NCBI GenBank assembly: GCA_002205965.3
Contig: NADL03000663.1
Location: 41,954 to 105,953 of the forward strand
Source: Kappaphycus alvarezii
Lineage: Eukaryota > Rhodophyta > Florideophyceae > Gigartinales > Solieriaceae
Direction: 5' to 3'
Length of the DNA: 64,000 nucleotides
Positions 53,029 through 64,000 of this stretch are shown here, piece by piece (the first letter of the stretch is position 1; each line of letters starts with the position of its first letter). Under the pieces are notes generated by a model, which made no database searches, was not told the origin of the DNA, and worked only from the letters and a program-made list of their open reading frames with translations. The position numbers and the translations under genes are program-made.

Positions 53029-53548
53029 TGAGGTATAAAACCGTTAGAGTTCACTTCTCTCTTATCTAACGGACGTCTCCGTTCGGGAAAGGGAAGGACC
53101 TCGGTAGATTGGTAGAGCGTTAGGTAGGTCTGCGACCAGCGAGGGACCACCGAACGGAATAACAAGGGAAACACAAGACAGAGGCTGGCTCACTCTCGGG
53201 ATGAGCTAACCGTGCCGCGGTTGGGGGAAATAAGCGGAGACGGTGACGGCGCGATACAGGCCAGAGGGAGACTAGTAAAACAAGGAGTAACCGAGCGGTA
53301 AAGGAAAAGGTAAAAGTAAAACAGGGAACTCCAAGGTGGAAGGGTGCTTACCTCTTTACTTGACGGGCACCGTAAAGGAGATCACAGTTAAATATCTGTG
53401 AAGTCCGTACGGAGTCCGATTGGACCTGGCACTAGACCCTAATGGTCCCGTGCATACAGGTGTCAATTTCTACTAATTATCATACGCATTACTAAATTAT
53501 ACCCTACTGTACTCTCCACAGTCCTGTAATTACCTTACGGATTCCTCA
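53029..53548 (-). repeat. E5 3' LTR
   Basis: 520 bp from TGAGG to CCTCA, giving a perfect 5-bp terminal inverted repeat. The right end is inferred from that repeat and from the change to C-rich sequence. The preceding five bases gcaat should recur beyond the window as target duplication. Confidence 0.7.
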
Positions 53549-53662
53549 CCCCGGCGCGGTGTACACTGCTGTACGCCCTCAACTTTGCCACGTGGTCGCC
53601 GAGCGGGTCAACGCGTGCATCGCAAAGCAACCGAACGGCCGGGTGATCTTCCCTTGGATCAT

Positions 53663-53669
53663 TATAAAT
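53663..53669 (+). promoter_or_regulatory. TATA box candidate for the opposite-strand E5 gene
   Basis: TATAAAT on the plus strand lies about 210 bp before an ATG in good context near 53,875. A further plus-strand TATAAAA sits at the outer edge of the LTR (53,034-53,040). Confidence 0.35.
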
Positions 53670-53874
53670 TCAGCCATCCCACTCACCGTGCGGTAACTTC
53701 ACTCACTATACCACAGACCCCCACCTTACCTCTGCGCACGTCCTCGGGCGTAAGTCATCCATCATCCTTCCTCTCTGTTCTCCTCTGCGCATGCCCTCTC
53801 CGCCATCAACATCACTCCCCTTTCGCAGCCCATATCAACCTACTGCTCAGAGAAATCGTCGCAACTCTCTCACC

Positions 53875-55690
53875 ATGCCGACTGGACAAGATACGCCGTC
53901 TCAATCTCTGACATCTTCCAACCCAGTTCCTTCCGTTCGGTATGACCCTGCAGCAATGGGGACAAGGTGGGGGACCTGCCGCCGATTCCTCATCACACTC
54001 CGTCCGGTGGTCTAGCAGCGCTACAGTACGCACCCCCGTCCGGAGCTTCAGTTCAAGTCATCACTTCCCGTCGCCGCCTCCGAGTTTGCCGGTTCTCCCC
54101 GGGCAAGAGTTGGACCATCGTTTGGTCGTGGGGATTCTTTCCGTGCGGTGCAGGTCCCGATGGGGGTGGACGACTTCATTCGTGGGCATCAAAAGTACTG
54201 GATGCTGAACGGTTCGCTGCCATACCACTTGTCCAACCACCGTATCGGAAGAACGTCAAGGGCCGAGAGCAGTCCTGGCAGCAGCACTGGGCTCACATTG
54301 GTGTGATTCTGGAAGCACCGCCCGGACTGGACTCTGCCTGGATCCGCTGCACTGGCGAACTTGGTTATACCGAACGGGTTGTTGCTCTGATTACAAGACA
54401 TCGCTGCCATACTCATCCGATTTGTCCATCTCCGGAGTTTGTCTGCTTCGATCAGCCCTACGACCGGTCCATCTTTTGGTTTGCCGATCGGAAGCGCTGG
54501 GGTGAGTCGGCCTTTACCGAGCATCGAATCCGCACTCGGTCCAAGGACAACTTCATTCACCAGGCTCACCGAACGGAATTTTTCGACGTACCCCGTCATT
54601 GCGCGCGAACTTGTACATCACGACTCCGAACGGATGGGACGAACTCGAGGCAACCCGCAGCTTGTGCATCCCTACTCCATCCGTTTTTGTGTACTTCTCT
54701 CATTGCCTGCTGCGTGAGCCTCACCGTTCGGATCGTCGCCTGACGGATATACTTTGGACTGCTGCTTTGTCCGAGTATATCGTGTTCGCCGGCTTGGCCA
54801 TCCTCGAAGCGGCATACTTCGGTATTACTAACTTTGTCCGTTCGGAAGATCCTCGTCTCTACAGTCAAGAAGGTGATGTACCGGGCGGTGACTGTGGTCG
54901 TCTCTTTCCAATTCCCGAGCGGTTGATGCGCGGAATAGAGGCATTCGGCATCGAGAACATCGTGTGCGACTCTGCTTACCGACCGGACTACGCAGTGGCT
55001 ATCTTCCGTCACTTGCGTTGCATCCAGTGGCCCGCGTACCCCGGTTTCTGCGGCTACAACTGGGAAGAAGACTCATTAGTACCGATTCGGGGTTCTGACC
55101 ATCGCTATCCAACACTTCCTCCTCCGCCAGAAGTCGGTTACAGTTCTCCCGTTCGGTCGCGAGGTCCTGAAGAAGTCCTGGCCCGTGGTGGTGGTCGTTA
55201 CACACCGCCTCCGTCTCCCGTTCCGGTAGAAGTTACTCCAGCGCCTTCCCATCCCTGTCCTTCTGCGAGCAAACCGAGAGGTACCGCGAAGCCATCTACT
55301 CCCTTGTCCGGCGCAACGAAGGCACCTCCTCTCCGTAGCGTTCCCGTTCCTGTTCCCGAACCGGTAGTAGTGGGAGCACTTGACAAACGCGAGGTGAGTC
55401 TGCAGTGCCCAAGCCGAGGCGCAACCGAGCGGAGAAAAAGAAGTTGAAGACGACCGTCCGGTGGTAGAAGAGATTCAGAAGTCTGTACAGAAGAATGCGG
55501 CTACGGAGCGCGTTGCATCTCCTCGAGCTTTTCCGTCCGGTAATGCGGTAACTCCCGTAATGGGTGTTCGCATTGCACGTCCTACAACTCCGACCGGTCT
55601 CCTCTACCTGTCACTCCTTGGAAACCAGACTACGAAAGCAGTGATTCGTCTGCGGCGGTTTCTCATGATCATCCGGGCGGGGCGTTGATT
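53875..55690 (+). CDS. E5 opposite-strand accessory gene region
   Basis: Between integrase and the 3' LTR the plus strand is coding-like over about 1.8 kb. It starts near an ATG with CACC before it, continues through a mixed globular region (HWAHIGVILEAPPGLDSAW near 54,290 and FGIENIVCDSAYRPDYAV near 54,950), and closes in a proline-, serine- and arginine-rich tail. I recognise no domain and see no signal peptide. Antisense genes in this position are known from some plant Ty3/gypsy elements; whether this one is related cannot be said. Interrupted about twice. Confidence 0.5.
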
Positions 55691-55699
55691 TCTGATACC

Positions 55700-57120
55700 A
55701 CGTTGGTCTCTCCGAAACGGTGATCCTACTTCGCGAGATTCAAGCCGTCTGTCGCCACACTCGCCGTCCGTTCCCGATTCGGTTGATGATGGTCTGCGTT
55801 TGTTACTAAGTACCATGATGGATGTGGACCGTTATGGGACATCTTAGCTAATTTGCGAACTTCCGTGCGGGTGAGGCCAGAGTTGGGTGAAGATGCGGAG
55901 ATACCATCCGAAACCGGAATTACCGATAGGGGTACCAAACGTCGTCGTCACCATTGATAGTACCGAGCGGTAACTTTGTCGTTGCGAATTAGCCGATCGG
56001 TAGTTACTCTCTTTTCTACTTCGTTGTAAAAGTTACCGACGTTCTGGTTCAAACTGTGTTTTCCCCTTTTCTTCTATTCCGTACGGTGATATCTTGACTT
56101 CTACTGCTCAGTTTCCGCCTCTGTCAACGCAGTGAGGGGGAGCACCTCCTCTTTAAAGTGGCAAGAGTTCAGGTCCGTAGCGTTAACCGTTTTAGAATGG
56201 GAGCATTTTCTTTTTTCCCAACTTTGCCGTCTTCTTCACCGTTCGGTAGACTTCATGTCCTTCGGCATATTACAGTGCGGTGCAGGTACTCCTGGAGGCG
56301 TTTCGGTGTTTTCTGGTACAGTAACTGAACCAATAAACACGCATTATTAGTGGAGTCAGGGGGTTCCTGCACCTTATTGAACCAATCAAAAGTATCCCCG
56401 TGCGGTAGGTATAGAATCAACCATTCATTTGCCTTCATTCTTGGCATCGCTCGGTCATTCCGCCTCCGGTCTGTGTTTTCCTTCTTTTTGCACCATCCGT
56501 TGTTTTCCCGCGCGGTACTGTACGCAGGTGGCTAAGAAATAATAAAATTTCATGATACCGTACTGTACTTTTGCGCGGTTTTTCTGCCATCCGTTTTCGG
56601 TTTCCACTCTTTGCATTTTGACCGTGGCCGGTATAAAAAGTCTGTTGCCCACCCTTTGGCTTGTCCAAACTCCGTCCCCTCACGGTTGCCTTTCCTCTTC
56701 CTCATCATCCTCCGTTCCGTCCGGTTTCTCCCTTCCCCTTGCACCATTTTCCGTTCGGTATACATCATCCTTCGGGAAAATACAGTACACTGCAGAAAGA
56801 GTGGTGCCTCCAGAAAGAGTGTCCGTTCGGAAAACAGTAAAGTAAACACGTCCCAGAAGGGGCGTACGTTCGGTAAGAGCCGTGCGGAATTCGGGACAAC
56901 CCAGAAGGGTTGGCCTACATGAGATCTGGGACGCAGATCGGTACTTCTCTCTCATCATCGTCCGGAATACCAGCCTTGAGGCCATAACCGCCTAGTTGGA
57001 CTATGTCCGATTTTCGTGAAACGGCAAGTGACTCCGGTAACTAATTCTTCCACCACAATAAACTCATTCCCTGGACAGTTAGGCTTGGGCCGCTTTCGGA
57101 GAGGAAAAGAACGTTCGGTT
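55700..57120. other. E5 spacer between accessory gene and pol
   Basis: No gene is seen. It is dense in CCGNNCGG (about ten copies). It also has loosely repeated blocks, such as TTGCACCAT followed within about 10 bases by a motif copy (56,489 and 56,740). The two coding directions converge here. Confidence 0.6.
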
Positions 57121-57507
57121 CTACCCCCTCCTTAGCTCGACGGCTCCCGGCGCCAATACTGACGTATTTGGTTTTCCGGGAGACCGTCAGGGTTTAAACG
57201 TATCCTCATCCGGGAATATCCGAACCAACGGACTCTGTACTCATTCCGGTCTGTGTTTCGCCGTGCGAAACGATCTTGTCCGCCACGTATTCCTCGTCCT
57301 CCGTATCGGAAGGTAATAAAGTAGGAGAATGCCGATCGGGAAGAATAGGTTGTAGAGGACTCACCAGACCCAGGGGTAGGAACTGTAGACGTATCGGATA
57401 AACCAGATAAAGGCAAACGACGCTCGGAACCTTAGTAACTCGGTCAATACTGACAGGAATAAGGAGACCATCCTGCTCAATGTAGACAACCGAGTCGGTA
57501 ACTGATT

Positions 57508-58600
57508 TCACCACGTACGGACCAGTAGTACGGGAAGAAGCTTTTTCCTTCCCTCGTTTAGTCTCGCCTCGTCGGTGTCAACTTCTCCCGTTAACGGATC
57601 CTTTTCTGCTCGTTCGACAGGACGCAGAGCCCGTGGCGGTCGATCAACAAATACAGTATCCCCCGAACGGATAACCGGTCGGAATCTTACTTTCCGATCA
57701 AAGTCCTGTTTTGCTTTTTCCTGCGCGGTAGTCATCTTCAAGTTAGCTTTTCGTAAAGCATACCGAAGTCGGCGCATCGTCGCTCGTTTCAGCTGTACAG
57801 GAGTTAGGGTTTCATCCGTAGCGGAGTCAGCCACTCGATCAATTGTTCCCGTAACGGTGATACTCGGCGGGTGTCGAGTTAATACCAAATCAAAGGGAGT
57901 AGTTCCCGTTACCCGGTGTACCTGCATATTGTAGGCGTAGGTCAATGGTTGTAAATAAAGATCCCAATCGGTTTGATGTTCTTCCACATAGTGACGAAGG
58001 CGCTGTACAATTGTCTTATTAAACCGTTCGGCTTGCCCATTAGTTTGAGGGTGATAGGCCGTGGTTAAGAAATGGCGGGACCCCAGCATACTGCAAACCG
58101 CATCAAAGAACTTAGCAGTAAACTGTTTCCCGTTATCGGTTAAGACATAAAGAGGGGCGCCATAAGCATAAACCCAATGGTCAAGGAACGCAGCTGCGAC
58201 AACCGCGGCGGTAGTAGTTCGTAAAGGGATGCAACGAGTGAGCTTAGAGAACCGATCGGTGATAACCAAAATAAAGACAAAGCCACGAGTAGTCTTCCGT
58301 AGCGGTCCGAGCAAATCCATTGCGACAAATTCGAGGGGGCCACTAGCTGGGAAGAGTTTCATAAACTTCTGAAACTTCCGTACGGTTCCGCGGTTACGAG
58401 CACAACTAACACAATCCCGGACGGTCATAAACACATCGTTCGCCATTTGTGGCCAGTAATACTCCCGCCGAAGGGAATAGTACATTCTAGTTCCGCCTGG
58501 ATGACCGGCTAAACGGGGATAGTGAGCCATATACAGTAACCGTGCTCGGAGCGACTTAGGAACAACTCGTTGTAAAGCTCCGTCCAATTTGGACTTTCGA
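57508..58600 (-). CDS. E5 integrase
   Basis: The zinc module runs from HYPRLAGHPG to CVSCAR (near 58,395-58,530). Catalytic blocks are VAMDLLGPL (near 58,320), LTDNGKQFT (near 58,130) and TNGQAERFN (near 58,030). The C-terminal part is basic and reaches about 57,508, and a shorter frame follows to about 57,130. Confidence 0.92.
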
Positions 58601-61212
58601 ACGAGAATACCGTATCGGTCGAAGTCGAACTCTGTTCACCGACTGCATTGGCCTTCCCTAGGCAGAATTCGTCCTTAGCTTGTTCAGCTAGGAATTCTTC
58701 CACCGTAAACGGGTTTGCAGGTTCATCAACCTCTGCAAGTGCCATTACCTCCGGTAGGCCAATAATTCTATTTTCCCCGAGTTCGGATTCCCAATATGCG
58801 ACTACAGCGTCGTGGTAATCAAGCAAACTTTCGCTTCCAGCTTGTTCCGGTTCGGCGTTGCTTTCAACGATGAAACAGGGGACTTCATAGTCGATATCTG
58901 TGTCGTCTTCACCTTCCGTTCGGAGTCTAGATACACCATCAGCCAACTGATGCTTGATACCCGGGCGGTATTCCACATCATATTCATACTCGGCTAACCT
59001 CAACCGCCATCTCGCAAGCCGTCCGGATGCGTCGGCTAGATTCAAAATCCAACGTAGTGCATGGTGATCCGTACGGAGAGTAAACTTGTCGCCATAAAGG
59101 TAAGGTCGTAGAGTTAGAATTGACCAAACAACAGCTAGGCATTCCTTCTCGGTGGTTGAATAATTCTGTTCCGCTTTGGTCAAACTCCTACTCCAATACC
59201 CAACAGGCAGTTTGTCACCGTTCGGTTGTTCTTGTAGGAGTGTGCATCCGACTTGATACTCGCAAGCGTCAGTGTCCAATGTGTATTTATAACCGATGCG
59301 GGTAAAGCCAGGATAGGTGGTGATACCAACTTCTGTTTCAGCGTCATAAAGGCATCAAATTCTTCATCATCTAGGATACCGAATTCGAACGGACTTCCTT
59401 TTCCGGTCTTCTTGTTCAGCGGCGCGGCTATCTTGGCGAAACCCTTGATAAACCGACGGTAAACGTTGCACATTCCTAAAACGACCTTAATTCCGTCTGG
59501 TTAGTCGGTGGAAGCGCTCTTTTGATAGCATCGCAATTCCTGTTATCCACGAGGAGTTGACCCGGACGGATGACATGGCCCAGATACGCAACCTCTGCCT
59601 CGAAGAAGGTGCACTTCGCCAAGCGGAGCGTGACACCAGCGGCTCTTAAAAGGCTCAACACTTCTCTAACATGCTGAAAGTGTTCCGAAACGGTCTTAGA
59701 ATAAATGATGACGTCGTCCAAGTAAACAAGGGCATACTGCCACTTAACCCGTGAAAGGATTATATCGACAGCCCTTTGGAACGTCGCGGGAGCATTCTTA
59801 AGACCGAACGGCATACGGGTAAAGCGAAACAAACCATGATGGCTAGAAAAGGTAGTCTTGTCCCTATCCTCTTCCGGTATCTCGACTTGCCAGTAGCCAC
59901 TGTTACAGTCTAGAGTAGAAAAGACCGTAGCCTCTCCCAGCGAGTCGATACACTCATCCATCCTTGGTATAGGATAGGAATCCCGTACGGTTACAGCATT
60001 CAGTCTTCTATAATCTATACAAAAACGTAAGGTGCCGTCCTTCTTCGGCGCGAATACGACTGGACTGGCCCATTCCGACTGTGTGGGCTCAATCACTCCG
60101 GCGGATAACATTCGATCGATCTCTTTCTTCTCGAATTCTCTTGCTTTTGGCCCGGCACGGTACGGTTGTTGATAGATTGGCCTAGCATCTGGCGTGAGCT
60201 CAATTCGATGCTTAGCTATATCTATCTTTCCGAGACGGCCAGTCCACATTTCGGAGAACTCGTCCAACAAATTGAGGACATCCTTTCTTATTTTCTCTTC
60301 TTTCACACCGACGCGGACCTGATCATGCCAATCTGGTTGCAATCCTTCTTGGCCGATCGGTCTGTCACTCGATGTATAATTACGTTGCGACTGCCAATTT
60401 GGTACAGTCTTCTCGTCTCTGCTTGAACCGGTCGGTAAAATAGATTCAGAATTAGAGTCCTTACCCCCCTCCTTAAGATGAGGTGCCATCCTGGCAGCGG
60501 GAAGAGTGACGGACAAAATCCGAGCGGGTGCAGGTAGAGCGAGACCCACGACTGTATTCTTGGGGAGAGTTGCAGTCTTACTAGAAAAATTACTCATTAA
60601 AACGACGAACGGCCGGTTCGGGCGGATGTCCATGATCCCATTTGCCATAAGGGCGAGATGTTTGATTAAGGGTTTGGGATGATTCTGGACAAGGCACAAA
60701 CCACCGGTCGGACATTGAACACGAATTGAAACATGACTCATAGGGGGTATTGTTACATGGGAGGCAAGACGAATCTTCCGGGATCGGGACTCAAAGGAAA
60801 GGGCTTGGATAGACGTAGAACGTTTCGACTTTGTCTCCGTCTTCGGTAACGTTCTGCCAACAATAGTAACTGGTGGTGCATGATGAAATACAACTTTCCG
60901 GTCGGATGGTAAAATAGCGCGTACATGTTGATCAATAAATGTAGTACCCAGAATGCAATCGACGGCTAGATTACCAACCACCAGGAAACGAACACGAGTC
61001 TTCAATTCACCGATACGGACATTAAGATCAAGAGTACCCAAACATCGGATGGGTTTATTTGAAGCGTCCAATAAAGGGGGTGCGGCAACCGAACGGATAG
61101 ATGATTTCCAAGCATCCGGTAGGGTGCGCACATTCACGATATTTGGTCCCGCTCCGGTATCAAGGACAGTCGTTAAAGGAATCATTAACGACGGGTCCCG
61201 TCCAACGGTCAT
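58600..61212 (-). CDS. E5 protease, reverse transcriptase and RNase H
   Basis: The protease active site LDTGAGPNIV is near 61,135-61,165. RT blocks are FAPKKDGTLRFCIDYRRLN (near 60,030), TLDCNSGYWQVEI (near 59,890), MPFGLKNAPATFQ (near 59,795) and YLDDVIIYSK (near 59,710). RNase H follows, with TDACEYQVGCTL (near 59,260), a TDHHALRWI block (near 59,060) and YRPGIKHQLADGVSRL (near 58,940). Confidence 0.93.
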
Positions 61213-61364
61213 TGATACTTTGTAGTTGCGTTTCTTAAAGAAATAAAGAGAATCACCAGCACTAGAATCATAACGCAGAGAGAAATCAGACGACAGAGAG
61301 GAGGTCTTCCGTTCCGGTGTCCATCGAAGACCTTTAGAATTCCAAATCGGAAACGACGACGCCC

Positions 61365-63475
61365 CTACGCGTTTCCGGCATCGTTTTCCGACTCGGGGTT
61401 ATCTACTTGTCCCGGAAGAGGGAGTGTTTCAGTAATCCCCTCCTCGATAATGTTAACCGAATGCGGCGCACGGGATGGACCAATCTGCGGGGGTACCGCA
61501 GCGGAGTTGTCCTTGTTTGCCATAAAGCGGCGATAGTTTTGGCTACGGATCTGCATCAATTTCGACCGGTCGGTAGCATTCAAGTAAGGACAGACGACGT
61601 GGCCGGGATCCAAACAAAGACGACAGAATGGAGGTTTAGACCTGGACGGAGGGTTACCAGCGCGATTCACAGGAGTACTCACTGTATCGGCCGGCGAGCT
61701 TCCTTGAGGGGACTTCGGCTGCTGCATTGCTGCAGGTGACGATGGTCCGGACGGATAGAAACTCGAGGGCGGCGTTGAATACGTAGTCACGCTGTTACCC
61801 GTACGGTCACCTTGAGTTAAAGCAAGAACTTCCAAATCTTCAACCCGTTCGGTCACGGTTGAACTGTCTTCTTGCGAAGGACTTTCGATCGTTAACGCCC
61901 TTCCCGGTCGGTCGCGTGGTTGAAATCTTGTCTCTTTCGTTAACGGGTAACTTGTTGCTATATTCGATACCGGTCGGCGAGCTGTACGATACCCTTCTCC
62001 CAATGCGTGGGCATGATTGACTACTGTCTGATAATCCGCATTCGGGTGAGTGGCGAGATACAGCCGCACCTGTTTGCAAGTGGCAGGCAACAAGCCATCT
62101 ACGAACAACGATTTCAACCTCCGATCGGAAAATACAGTACCGCAACGGAGAGCTTTGTTCCACAACATCCGGGAATAGGACTCTTCGGTCATTGAAGAAC
62201 TTTGCTTAAAGTTCACAACTTCCGAATAGGCCATCGCGATTACCTCATCGGTTGCATACGTACGGAGTAGAAACTGAACCACTTCTTTGTACGAACGGAG
62301 CAACTCATGATGGTTTCTATCCATCGCCATCGAACCGCCGGTCATACGAGCTTGCACTAGCACTTCGGCTTGTCCGGTGAGGTAGAATTGGAAACACCAC
62401 ATGGCGGCCTGCTCCGGTACGGAATTCATGTTACAAGCGTCTTTGAACTTGGCCAAAAAGTTCAAAACCGCGATCGGATCTGATCCAGAGAACATGTGCG
62501 GTCTCATCTGGATGTCTATCTTCTTTCTGTATTTAACGATACTCCTCGACGACCCGTGAGAATCTGCCGAACGGAGTTCCAAACGATAGGTCTTGTAGTT
62601 CACTGCCTTCGTGAACAACTCATTCAACGGACGTAGCGGCTTCAACTTCTTACTAGACCTCTCTTTTTCTTCTTACCACGACGGGAGCTATCCGAACCGG
62701 ACGACGACGAACTGGATGAACTCGACGATTCCGAATCGGTACTCGCATCACTTGAATCGTGGGAACTCCGGCGACGGGAACCCTTCTTACTCTTCTTCTT
62801 CTTCTTGCGGCTTCGGCTCTTCTTCCGGCCATCATCGGAACTTGAACTTTCGAATTCCGAATCGGTACTAGTCTCCTCTTCTCGATACTTGCGACGCGAC
62901 CTTGATTTCTTCTTACCGTGACGGGAAGGAGAGCGATCATCATCACACTCACCACGTCCGCTACGGTGTTTGGGACTCGACTCTTCATCATTAGAGTCTC
63001 GTCCCCCAGCAGGGTTAACCGGAAAGTACGGTTGTTTCACATCCATGGGTGGAACAGCCGACTCCCGTAAAGGACTTGTATTACCGTGTTCGGTGTTTTT
63101 AAACTGTAAATGCCCAGACGGGCCTGGTAGACTCTTGGCGAGATTTCCGGTCGGTAGACTGCTCGAACTATCCGGTACGGGTTTAGACTCTTCGTCAGCT
63201 CTGAGTAATTCCTCGATGGGCATATTTGCAAAGCGCCTCATCAGAGCTGTAGTCTCCTCCCGAAGGAATGACATGACCATCGGCTCCGCAGCCTCGGCCA
63301 TTATGTCATACACCTTTGCTTGGAGCTCGGACTCCATAACCGAATGGACTTGTTCCTGCACCTCCTTCTTAACCATCTCCTGTACTTCGACCTTTAATTC
63401 CGAACGGATTTTCTTCTTCACTTCTTCTGTTGCATTATCAACTTCCGTACGGACTTGTGGACCCAGGGCATCCAA
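61365..63475 (-). CDS. E5 gag with long coiled-coil and SR-rich N-terminal part
   Basis: The N-terminal part (about 62,642-63,475) begins with a highly charged coiled-coil stretch (EEVKKKIRSELKVEVQEMV near 63,370). It ends in a serine/arginine/lysine-rich region with KKKKKSKKGSRRRSSHDSS near 62,780. A capsid-like part follows (about 61,900-62,645), and then a single zinc knuckle CRLCLDPGHVVC near 61,590-61,630. The SR/K-rich part is unusual for a Ty3/gypsy gag and suggests strong RNA binding or nuclear traffic. The first codon is not settled. Confidence 0.82.
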
Positions 63476-63919
63476 TACACGCGGGACGACCCTCGCTGTG
63501 TATCCACCGGGCCCTTTCCAAACCGATCGGTGATGTCATTCCGGACGGTGATGTCATGGCTCTTGCCAATCCACTGTCTCCGGACGGAGGTCCTGGAAAC
63601 AACTGATAGGGGGCCGAAGTAACGGGGTCGGCGGCACTTGTCGGCGTCGCTTGGTTCCGTGCACGGTCATGCAAATACCGTTCCGGTTCGGCGAGCGGCT
63701 TCGTCAGTGCCGACGGCGCACTGCGGGTGCTATGGGAAGACTGGGAGCCTTCCGGGCGGTCTACGGGGCGGACATCTTGACTTCGGTATCTTCTTCTTGA
63801 AGTACCGAACGGATAATACTGTGATTTTCGACTCTGCTTCTCTTGTTTTCCGGTGGCGTCTCTTCTCGAAACCTAAAACCGTACGGAATTAACCAAAAGG
63901 GGTTCTAGGTCGGGAGAGT
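63476..63919 (-). other. E5 leader between 5' LTR and gag
   Basis: 444 bp with short openings only, but six copies of CCGNNCGG (63,523, 63,541, 63,580, 63,752, 63,805 and 63,879). RNA packaging signals of LTR elements usually lie in this region. Confidence 0.6.
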
Positions 63920-64000
63920 TGAGGTATAAAACCGTTAGGGTTCACTTCTCTCTTACCTAACGGACGTCTCCGTTCGGGAAAGGGAAGGACCTCGGTAGAT
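63920..64000 (-). repeat. E5 5' LTR, first 81 bp
   Basis: Matches 53,029-53,109 with very few differences; cut by the end of the window. Confidence 0.9.

Follow-up and report, generated by a model that had tools for sequence, protein, structure and literature searches.

Dispersed two-fold-symmetric sites in a chromovirus clade of an algal genome, and their possible reading by a dimeric DNA-binding protein

The window analysed here, a 64,000-nucleotide stretch of contig NADL03000663.1 from an assembly of 336 Mb in 884 contigs, ends in a retroelement, E5, at positions 53029–63977. E5 is a chromodomain Ty3/gypsy long terminal repeat (LTR) retrotransposon, or chromovirus, and it carries the palindromic frame CCGNNCGG (CCG-N2-CGG) exactly 77 times. 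This recount agrees with the original prediction, a reading of the window's letters alone, and includes every example it had named; the first copy, at 53079, does lie 50 bp inside the left LTR. We found that the motif represents one form of a dyad, CC-N4/5-GG, common to a whole clade of families in the same genome, with half-site and spacing differing by lineage, and that its properties fit a site read in double-stranded DNA by a dimeric protein.

The element is encoded on the minus strand, with Gag (assigned by position), reverse transcriptase (RT), RNase H and integrase in the order typical of Ty3/gypsy elements in a Pfam search. The features are as follows.

53029..53715, minus strand: left LTR of 687 bp (TGAGG...CCACA), which is the 3' LTR with respect to gag-pol, placed by the LTR pairs and boundaries of other copies
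53716..53725, minus strand: presumed polypurine tract adjoining the 3' LTR, read directly as GACCCCCACC on the plus strand and found at the same place in other full copies
53872..55316, plus strand: antisense open reading frame (aORF) encoding a protein without known relatives, its frame broken in the window copy
57120..57250 (approximate), minus strand: chromodomain at the C terminus of pol, mapped from copy L014
57508..58635, minus strand: integrase (H2C2 zinc binding and rve core), by Pfam
58509..59354, minus strand: RNase H, by Pfam
59476..61398, minus strand: protease region and RT (RVT_1, E=4.9e-34)
61365..62672, minus strand: C-terminal part of Gag, by position; open frame with no Pfam match
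62642..63535, minus strand: N-terminal part of Gag, by position; open frame with no Pfam match
63910..63919, minus strand: presumed primer-binding-site region, judged from its position, reading GGGAGAGT
63920..64000, minus strand: right LTR (5' LTR), truncated where window and contig end, its 81 bp matching the left LTR at 97.5%
53079..63977, no strand assigned: the 77 CCGNNCGG sites, the first at 53079 and the last at 63970–63977

The chromodomain (PF00385, E=1.4e-7) was detected at the integrase C terminus of the near-identical copy L014 in a Pfam search at E<=1, and its place in the window is that of L014 carried over, the window's own frame being broken there. The protease is a sub-threshold Pfam match, again in L014. 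Position 63977 is not a true end of E5 but an effect of the window, since the right LTR begins at 63920 and window and contig alike stop at 64000. E5 resembles known chromoviruses in its RT, RNase H, integrase, C-terminal chromodomain, LTRs and, in several copies, 5-bp target duplications, and differs from them in its dispersed dyad sites and its long antisense open reading frame (ORF). Such duplications agree on both sides of C482, C513 and C732 and of a solo LTR on C9, agree nearly at C130 and C641, and disagree at C780 and C718; the window copy lacks its right flank. Their sequences (CTGGT, ATCGA, CAGTA, GTCTT) are unlike the motif, and we rejected integration targeting as an explanation for the sites.

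The best few database matches of the E5 RT ORF reach 49–58% identity over 88–94% of its length and some shorter ones 72–74% over about 40%; among the 120 matches listed of 270, the only organism names are the red alga Agarophyton chilense (three) and one bacterial metagenome-assembled genome record, which makes a red-algal host probable. A search for relatives in viral and prokaryote contig collections came to nothing. Several features of the copies may be recorded here: the presumed primer-binding site reads GGGAGAGT in the window copy and GGGAGACCAGT in most others, frame-shifting indels occur in copies and some are perhaps assembly errors, several contigs (C659, C718, C482, C780) stop at or just past an E5 copy, and three copies (L004, L013, L015) share their right flank. 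The remainder of the window (1–53028) contains several more elements of LTR type, among them nested and duplicated ones, including a repeat of about 2.7 kb at 27.8–30.5 kb and 34.5–37.3 kb.

The abundance of the motif in E5 is far beyond what composition predicts. Dinucleotide shuffles of the element (n=200) gave a mean of 4.0 copies and a maximum of 11, and synonymous-codon shuffles (n=500) of seven open segments gave a mean of 6.7 and a maximum of 14 against 47 observed, so that the excess outlived the shuffling controls that had been proposed as a check on it. The seven segments overlap slightly, no site being counted twice, and two of them lie in the aORF region where the window's frames are broken; gag-pol holds 32 of the 47 sites and the aORF region 15, and they fall evenly over the three codon phases (14/16/17). 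Elsewhere the motif is rare. The other 53,028 bases of the window contain five copies (13084, 21541, 27448, 34210, 43533), where none had been noticed before, and twenty 2-kb stretches from places chosen blind in the same genome also contain five in their 40 kb, a background density nowhere near that of E5. Eight scanned segments of window positions 1–53028 showed no comparable dispersed dyad. Pairs of the motif 10–40 bp apart occur at 1078 places genome-wide versus 940 for a mirrored control; since this is hardly above the control, such pairs are not diagnostic on their own, and the result speaks against a genome-wide role.

In a scan of all pairs of 3-mers at spacings 0–15, CCG-N2-CGG came out far ahead (77 versus 7.7 expected), followed mainly by its own sub-patterns and by CCG-N3-CGG. 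The preference is for a flexible but short spacing: 77 sites at spacing 2, 37 at spacing 3 (CCGNNNCGG; 4.5 expected) and 20 at spacing 4 (CCGNNNNCGG; 4.3 expected), with spacings 0, 1 and 5–15 near expectation (3 versus 4.4 at spacing 5; the largest, at spacing 8, 9 versus 4.6). A compositional or mutational by-product of G+C-rich codons, CpG retention or repeat expansion could draw on the CpG observed/expected ratio of 1.08–1.22 in the last 12 kb of the window, compared with 0.73–0.98 elsewhere, but the dinucleotide null falls short by a factor of 19 and the codon null by a factor of 7, and other arrangements of CGG and CCG stay within about twice expectation (CGG-N2-CGG and CGG-N11-CGG, each 10 versus 4.8). 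Two exceptions, CGG-N1-CGG (21 versus 4.6) and CCG-N1-CCG (10 versus 4.0), arise mostly because 17 sites have a centre beginning with G and 9 a centre ending in C. Tandem Repeats Finder (score >=50) reported no array inside E5; spread by tandem repetition was rejected on this ground, and the sites probably arose one by one. Chance together with composition is thus rejected by both nulls, in the sense tested, and we give the by-product explanation almost no credence.

What kind of molecule reads such a site can be approached from the pattern of its variation. The two half-sites of E5 vary independently, unlike the inverted repeats of the elements C713 and C585b considered below: CCGNNCGG shows no covariation, with 16 complementary centres versus 21 expected and 23 complementary pairs just outside the frame versus 25 expected. 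Near misses at spacing 2 include 5 of the G-U kind versus 14 of the A-C kind. Because the halves do not covary and G-U is not favoured, the sites look as though a dimeric protein reads them in the DNA duplex, and they fit that role rather than RNA folding. The original suggestion of a protein recognition site, which had started from a fixed frame around a free centre, gains support from these properties, from a centre that is not self-complementary and from the short spacing. A role in the genomic RNA, as a structural or packaging signal formed by mini-hairpins or Gag-binding elements, would agree with sites running through the whole element and with the sister families described below, which are saturated with hairpin-capable inverted repeats. 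It seems highly unlikely to us, however, as the best spacing of 2 cannot close an RNA hairpin, spacings of 5 and above are not enriched, inverted repeats with arms of at least 4 are not in excess in E5, its G-U near misses are rarer than its A-C ones, and the inverted-repeat families themselves enrich A-C over G-U stems in 6 of 8 pieces.

Sites occur on average once per 143 bp of E5. They are densest in the 5' leader (13.0/kb), the aORF region (10.4/kb) and the LTR (10.2/kb, the left LTR carrying seven), and gag-pol has 4.6–6.3/kb. Coding constraint may limit the sites, but it leaves part of this pattern unexplained.

Relatives of the E5 RT in the same genome range from 52 to 100% identity (150 scored of 11133 candidates), and around them we fetched twelve stretches of 2.5 kb plus twenty of roughly 1.5 kb; five of these were extended, perhaps beyond the element. 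CCG-N2-CGG is retained in L048–L050 (87–93% RT identity). More distant relatives favour other dyads: C567 (80% RT identity) has CCG-N3-CGG 36 times versus 3.9 expected in 5.5 kb; C837 (73%) has ACC-N4-GGA 47 times versus 8.9; and C447 (73%) has CCT-N2-AGG 20 times versus 4.1, with AGGTG at 63 versus 18.8 and AGGAG at 70 versus 23.9. Common to them is CC-N4/5-GG, with 145 occurrences at spacing 4 in 9 kb of C837 and 122 in 9 kb of C447, whereas the 40-kb background is flat at 71–96 per spacing. On a tree of 33 RT rows, the E5 clade comprises 14 rows with support of 100/98, and CC-N4/5-GG passes a cut-off of p<0.001, applied to all 33 rows with expected counts from the other CC/GG spacings of the same sequence, in 14 of 14 rows of the clade and 4 of the 19 others. 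The 18 dyad rows require four changes on the tree. An earlier grouping by hand had given a single-branch split with 100/98 support, but it had placed L049, L070 and L073 in the dyad group, left eight rows in no group, and counted L059 and L079, which pass both cut-offs, with the inverted-repeat families.

Within the clade the half-site itself changes: a C precedes GG at a frequency of 0.69 in the E5 subclade, the L052 subclade shows a G two positions past GG (0.54), and the L053 subclade has neither, giving a series of CGG spaced 2, CGG spaced 3, GGWG and plain GG. Hence the claim that the motif belongs to E5 itself stands in so far as the motif is rare in the genomic background and falls in so far as it is one member of a clade-wide set with changing half-site and spacing. 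A separate word, TACAGTA/ACTGTA, is enriched in E5, C447, C837, C585b and C713 (ACTGTA 18 versus 3.7 in E5; TACAGTA 13 versus 0.5 in C713). The lineage differences in half-site and spacing bear on a host-directed explanation, in which no element protein is involved and the sites bind a factor of the host, be it an activator that the element exploits or one that acts in silencing or methylation. Such a factor would account for a core GG dyad that is common to families in which no aORF is detectable. On the other hand, no single host factor would dictate half-sites and spacings that differ among families of one genome, the background of 5 sites in 40 kb is low, and a silencing target should be lost from successful elements, yet three young copies, with LTR pairs alike at 97.2–98.5% (C780, C718, C482), carry 80, 84 and 84 sites. 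We regard this explanation as unlikely, though not negligible.

A different kind of symmetry appears outside the E5 clade. Perfect inverted repeats (arm 5, loop 1–8) occur at 2.4–7.0 times expectation in 10 of the 19 rows there (L056, L057, L058, L059, L071, L075, L079, L081, L084 and L086, with 55–66% RT identity), among which L056, L057 and L071 form one near-identical family and L059 and L079 another; the remaining 9 rows lie at 0.7–2.1 times expectation, and no row of the E5 clade shows an excess. In L057, 83 non-overlapping inverted repeats (arm >=5, loop <=12) cover 1410 of 2501 bases. They extend into ORFs, with 51 versus 5.1 (L057) and 45 versus 4.3 under synonymous-codon shuffles in the C585 element, and 20 versus 5.4 and 19 versus 5.8 in C713, whose repeats have fixed GG...CC ends (GG-N8/9-CC) and covarying inner pairs (67 versus 32 and 54 versus 33). 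At arm 5, perfect stems are enriched 2.9–8.1 fold, those with one G-U 1.0–1.9, with one A-C 1.4–2.2 and with one other mismatch 1.2–1.6, and A-C stems exceed G-U stems in the 6 of 8 pieces noted above. RNA viruses are known for genome-scale ordered RNA structure, which some of these families recall in their pervasive symmetric pairing across coding sequence, but these families show no preference for G-U pairs, and E5 lacks excess hairpin arms. The inverted repeats, too, point to DNA-level symmetry or copying mutation rather than sense-strand RNA structure. We dropped an apparent sign of selection on the arms of L084 (93% like L057, versus 77% elsewhere) as an ascertainment effect: taken in both directions, 0.140 + 0.067 of arm positions changed versus about 0.225 of other sites, which indicates little conservation. 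Window positions 1–53028 show a mild excess of inverted repeats of their own (751 versus 563; arm 5, loops 3–12).

It is conceivable that these repeats and the dyads of the E5 clade serve one function as a group-wide trait of DNA symmetry, through a symmetric element protein or an extruded structure, the E5 motif being a specialised form. Both traits are dense, Watson-Crick symmetric and free of a sense-strand G-U bias, and the ten enriched rows, the repeats inside ORFs and the C713 repeats would suit such a trait. Nevertheless, the nine unenriched rows, the missing excess in the E5 clade and the non-covarying E5 dyads mean that the two may be unrelated, and template-switch mutation could have produced the inverted repeats; we therefore consider a shared function distinctly improbable.

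The reading that we prefer, a dimeric protein acting on the element's own double-stranded DNA, calls for a binder, and the aORF is a candidate. It lies between the integrase and the left LTR on the opposite strand, and in copy L010 it is open for 628 codons from stop to stop, or 488 from the presumed first Met. No relative was found among 8000 scored database candidates, no Pfam match up to E=1, and matches in PDB were at chance level. Within its own genome it has at least 103 matches of 28–100% identity (216 candidates, of which 87 were scored). Measured against the RT of what we take, from a distance of 4–6 kb, to be the same element, its identity to E5 is 38–44% versus 80% in C567, which is the family whose spacing switched, 44–53% versus 76% in C669, 53% versus 74% in C658 and 42% over a part versus 75% in C283. 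The aORF thus appears to diverge faster than RT, as would be expected of a self-marking protein, although RT was the only yardstick and this speed may be ordinary. Among the same scored candidates, an aORF is detectable near four rows of the E5 subclade out of five sampled (E5, L048, L050 and L051, with L049 the exception). The binder could also be the integrase, Gag or a protein of the host.

This leads us to the observations that weigh against the preferred reading. Copies of E5 give little sign of site conservation in the comparison with flanking bases that had been proposed. Their fetched stretches, flanks included, contain many sites (80 in C780, as 63+17; 84 each in C718, C482 and C130; 68 in C513, which carries a deletion; 63 in C641), but the roughly 90% identical C641 keeps 52 of 84 aligned sites, and its fixed bases are hardly more conserved (0.936 and 0.924 identical in two pieces) than their flanks (0.920 and 0.907) or other CpGs (0.885 and 0.921). 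Three relatives compared over the RT region, with 92–93% DNA identity, keep 8/14, 8/14 and 7/13 sites, no better than G+C-rich control windows (50–62%); as 23 of these relatives' own 24 sites are also present in E5, they lose sites and do not gain them. Some of the compared copies carry stops, so selection may no longer act on them, and the more distant C567, whose aligned part is 72% identical at the DNA level, retains its sites more often than the controls, at 4 of 8, a small number, versus 16/101 G+C-rich and 134/1356 unselected control windows. Furthermore, the nine rows that make up the two remaining dyad subclades have no aORF match nearby among the scored candidates. Barring divergence past the point of recognition, the aORF cannot be the sole binder, and the dyad would be older or wider than the detectable aORF. 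Four rows outside the E5 clade (L059, L079, L074, L083) pass the core cut-off as well. The interval between the aORF and integrase (55991–57507), much of it non-coding, has a gag-pol-like 6.6/kb, so that density does not simply track freedom to vary. Finally, single-mismatch sites are unevenly split on the sense strand: the fault lies in the 5' half in 28 and in the 3' half in 42.

The nearest known system, by analogy, is VANDAL/VANC of Arabidopsis, the VANDALs being DNA transposons of the Mutator type. These transposons carry dense, short, family-specific motifs bound by their own VANC anti-silencing proteins, related families using other motifs; the motifs described are YAGTATTAY and AGTTGTCC/AC, mainly non-coding and in tandem repeats, with those of VANDAL21 in one orientation (PMC5735166, PMC10398659). 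E5 is alike in a motif that is dense, family-specific and rare elsewhere, in related families with different motifs, and in an extra fast-evolving gene, the aORF. It is unlike VANDALs in being an LTR retrotransposon rather than a Mutator-like DNA transposon with vanA/vanC genes, and, by the same sources, in sites that are two-fold-symmetric, both coding and non-coding (47 of 77 in open segments read as coding) and dispersed without a tandem array; the VANDAL binder is the element's VANC, while that of E5 is a candidate only. In the open-licence literature of PubMed Central we found no description of such self-marking in an LTR element, the VANDAL papers alone, among those listed, appearing relevant by title and the start of the abstract, and no paper on palindromic motifs in algal LTR elements. 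The claim that no such element has been described thus holds for E5 as far as searched, with VANDAL/VANC as a precedent.

Sites of Leu3-type Zn2Cys6 factors are everted CCG-N4-CGG. E5 shares with them everted CGG half-sites at a short spacing, but its best spacing is 2 instead of 4, its sister families use 3 or other half-sites, and the host is probably not a fungus. The fungal setting that had been invoked for the motif finds no support in the names among the RT matches listed above, nor does a Zn2Cys6 factor within the element find any in the E5 ORFs, where no Zn-cluster domain was detected (Pfam, E<=0.001 and E<=1).

Taken together, the sequence patterns lead us to favour, by a modest degree of belief above even, the explanation that the dispersed sites bind a dimeric, sequence-specific protein acting on the element's own double-stranded DNA, as a lineage-tuned form of self-marking that would most plausibly serve transcribability. 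A putative two-fold-symmetric DNA-binding protein, encoded by the element or co-opted from the host, would read the sites and coat the element lengthwise, thereby distinguishing it from all other genomic DNA. Each lineage of the chromovirus clade would have its own half-site and spacing around the shared CC-N4/5-GG core, selection would act on the element to carry many sites, and the most plausible role would be to keep it transcribable, through anti-silencing or activation. A wider proposal is possible but doubtful, namely that chromoviruses of an entire group in a single algal genome mark themselves with dense symmetric sites that run through coding sequence as well, one clade through re-tuned half-sites and many sister families through arbitrary perfect inverted repeats, as DNA-level self-recognition with rapid co-evolution of protein and site.

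If the preferred explanation is true, an LTR retrotransposon has inscribed itself with a binding site along its full length, coding sequence included, and the series of CGG spaced 2, CGG spaced 3, GGWG and GG would constitute a natural record of protein-DNA co-evolution within one genome. Retrotransposon anti-silencing would then become testable outside plants, and it would be a sharper question still why arbitrary inverted repeats crowd the sister families.

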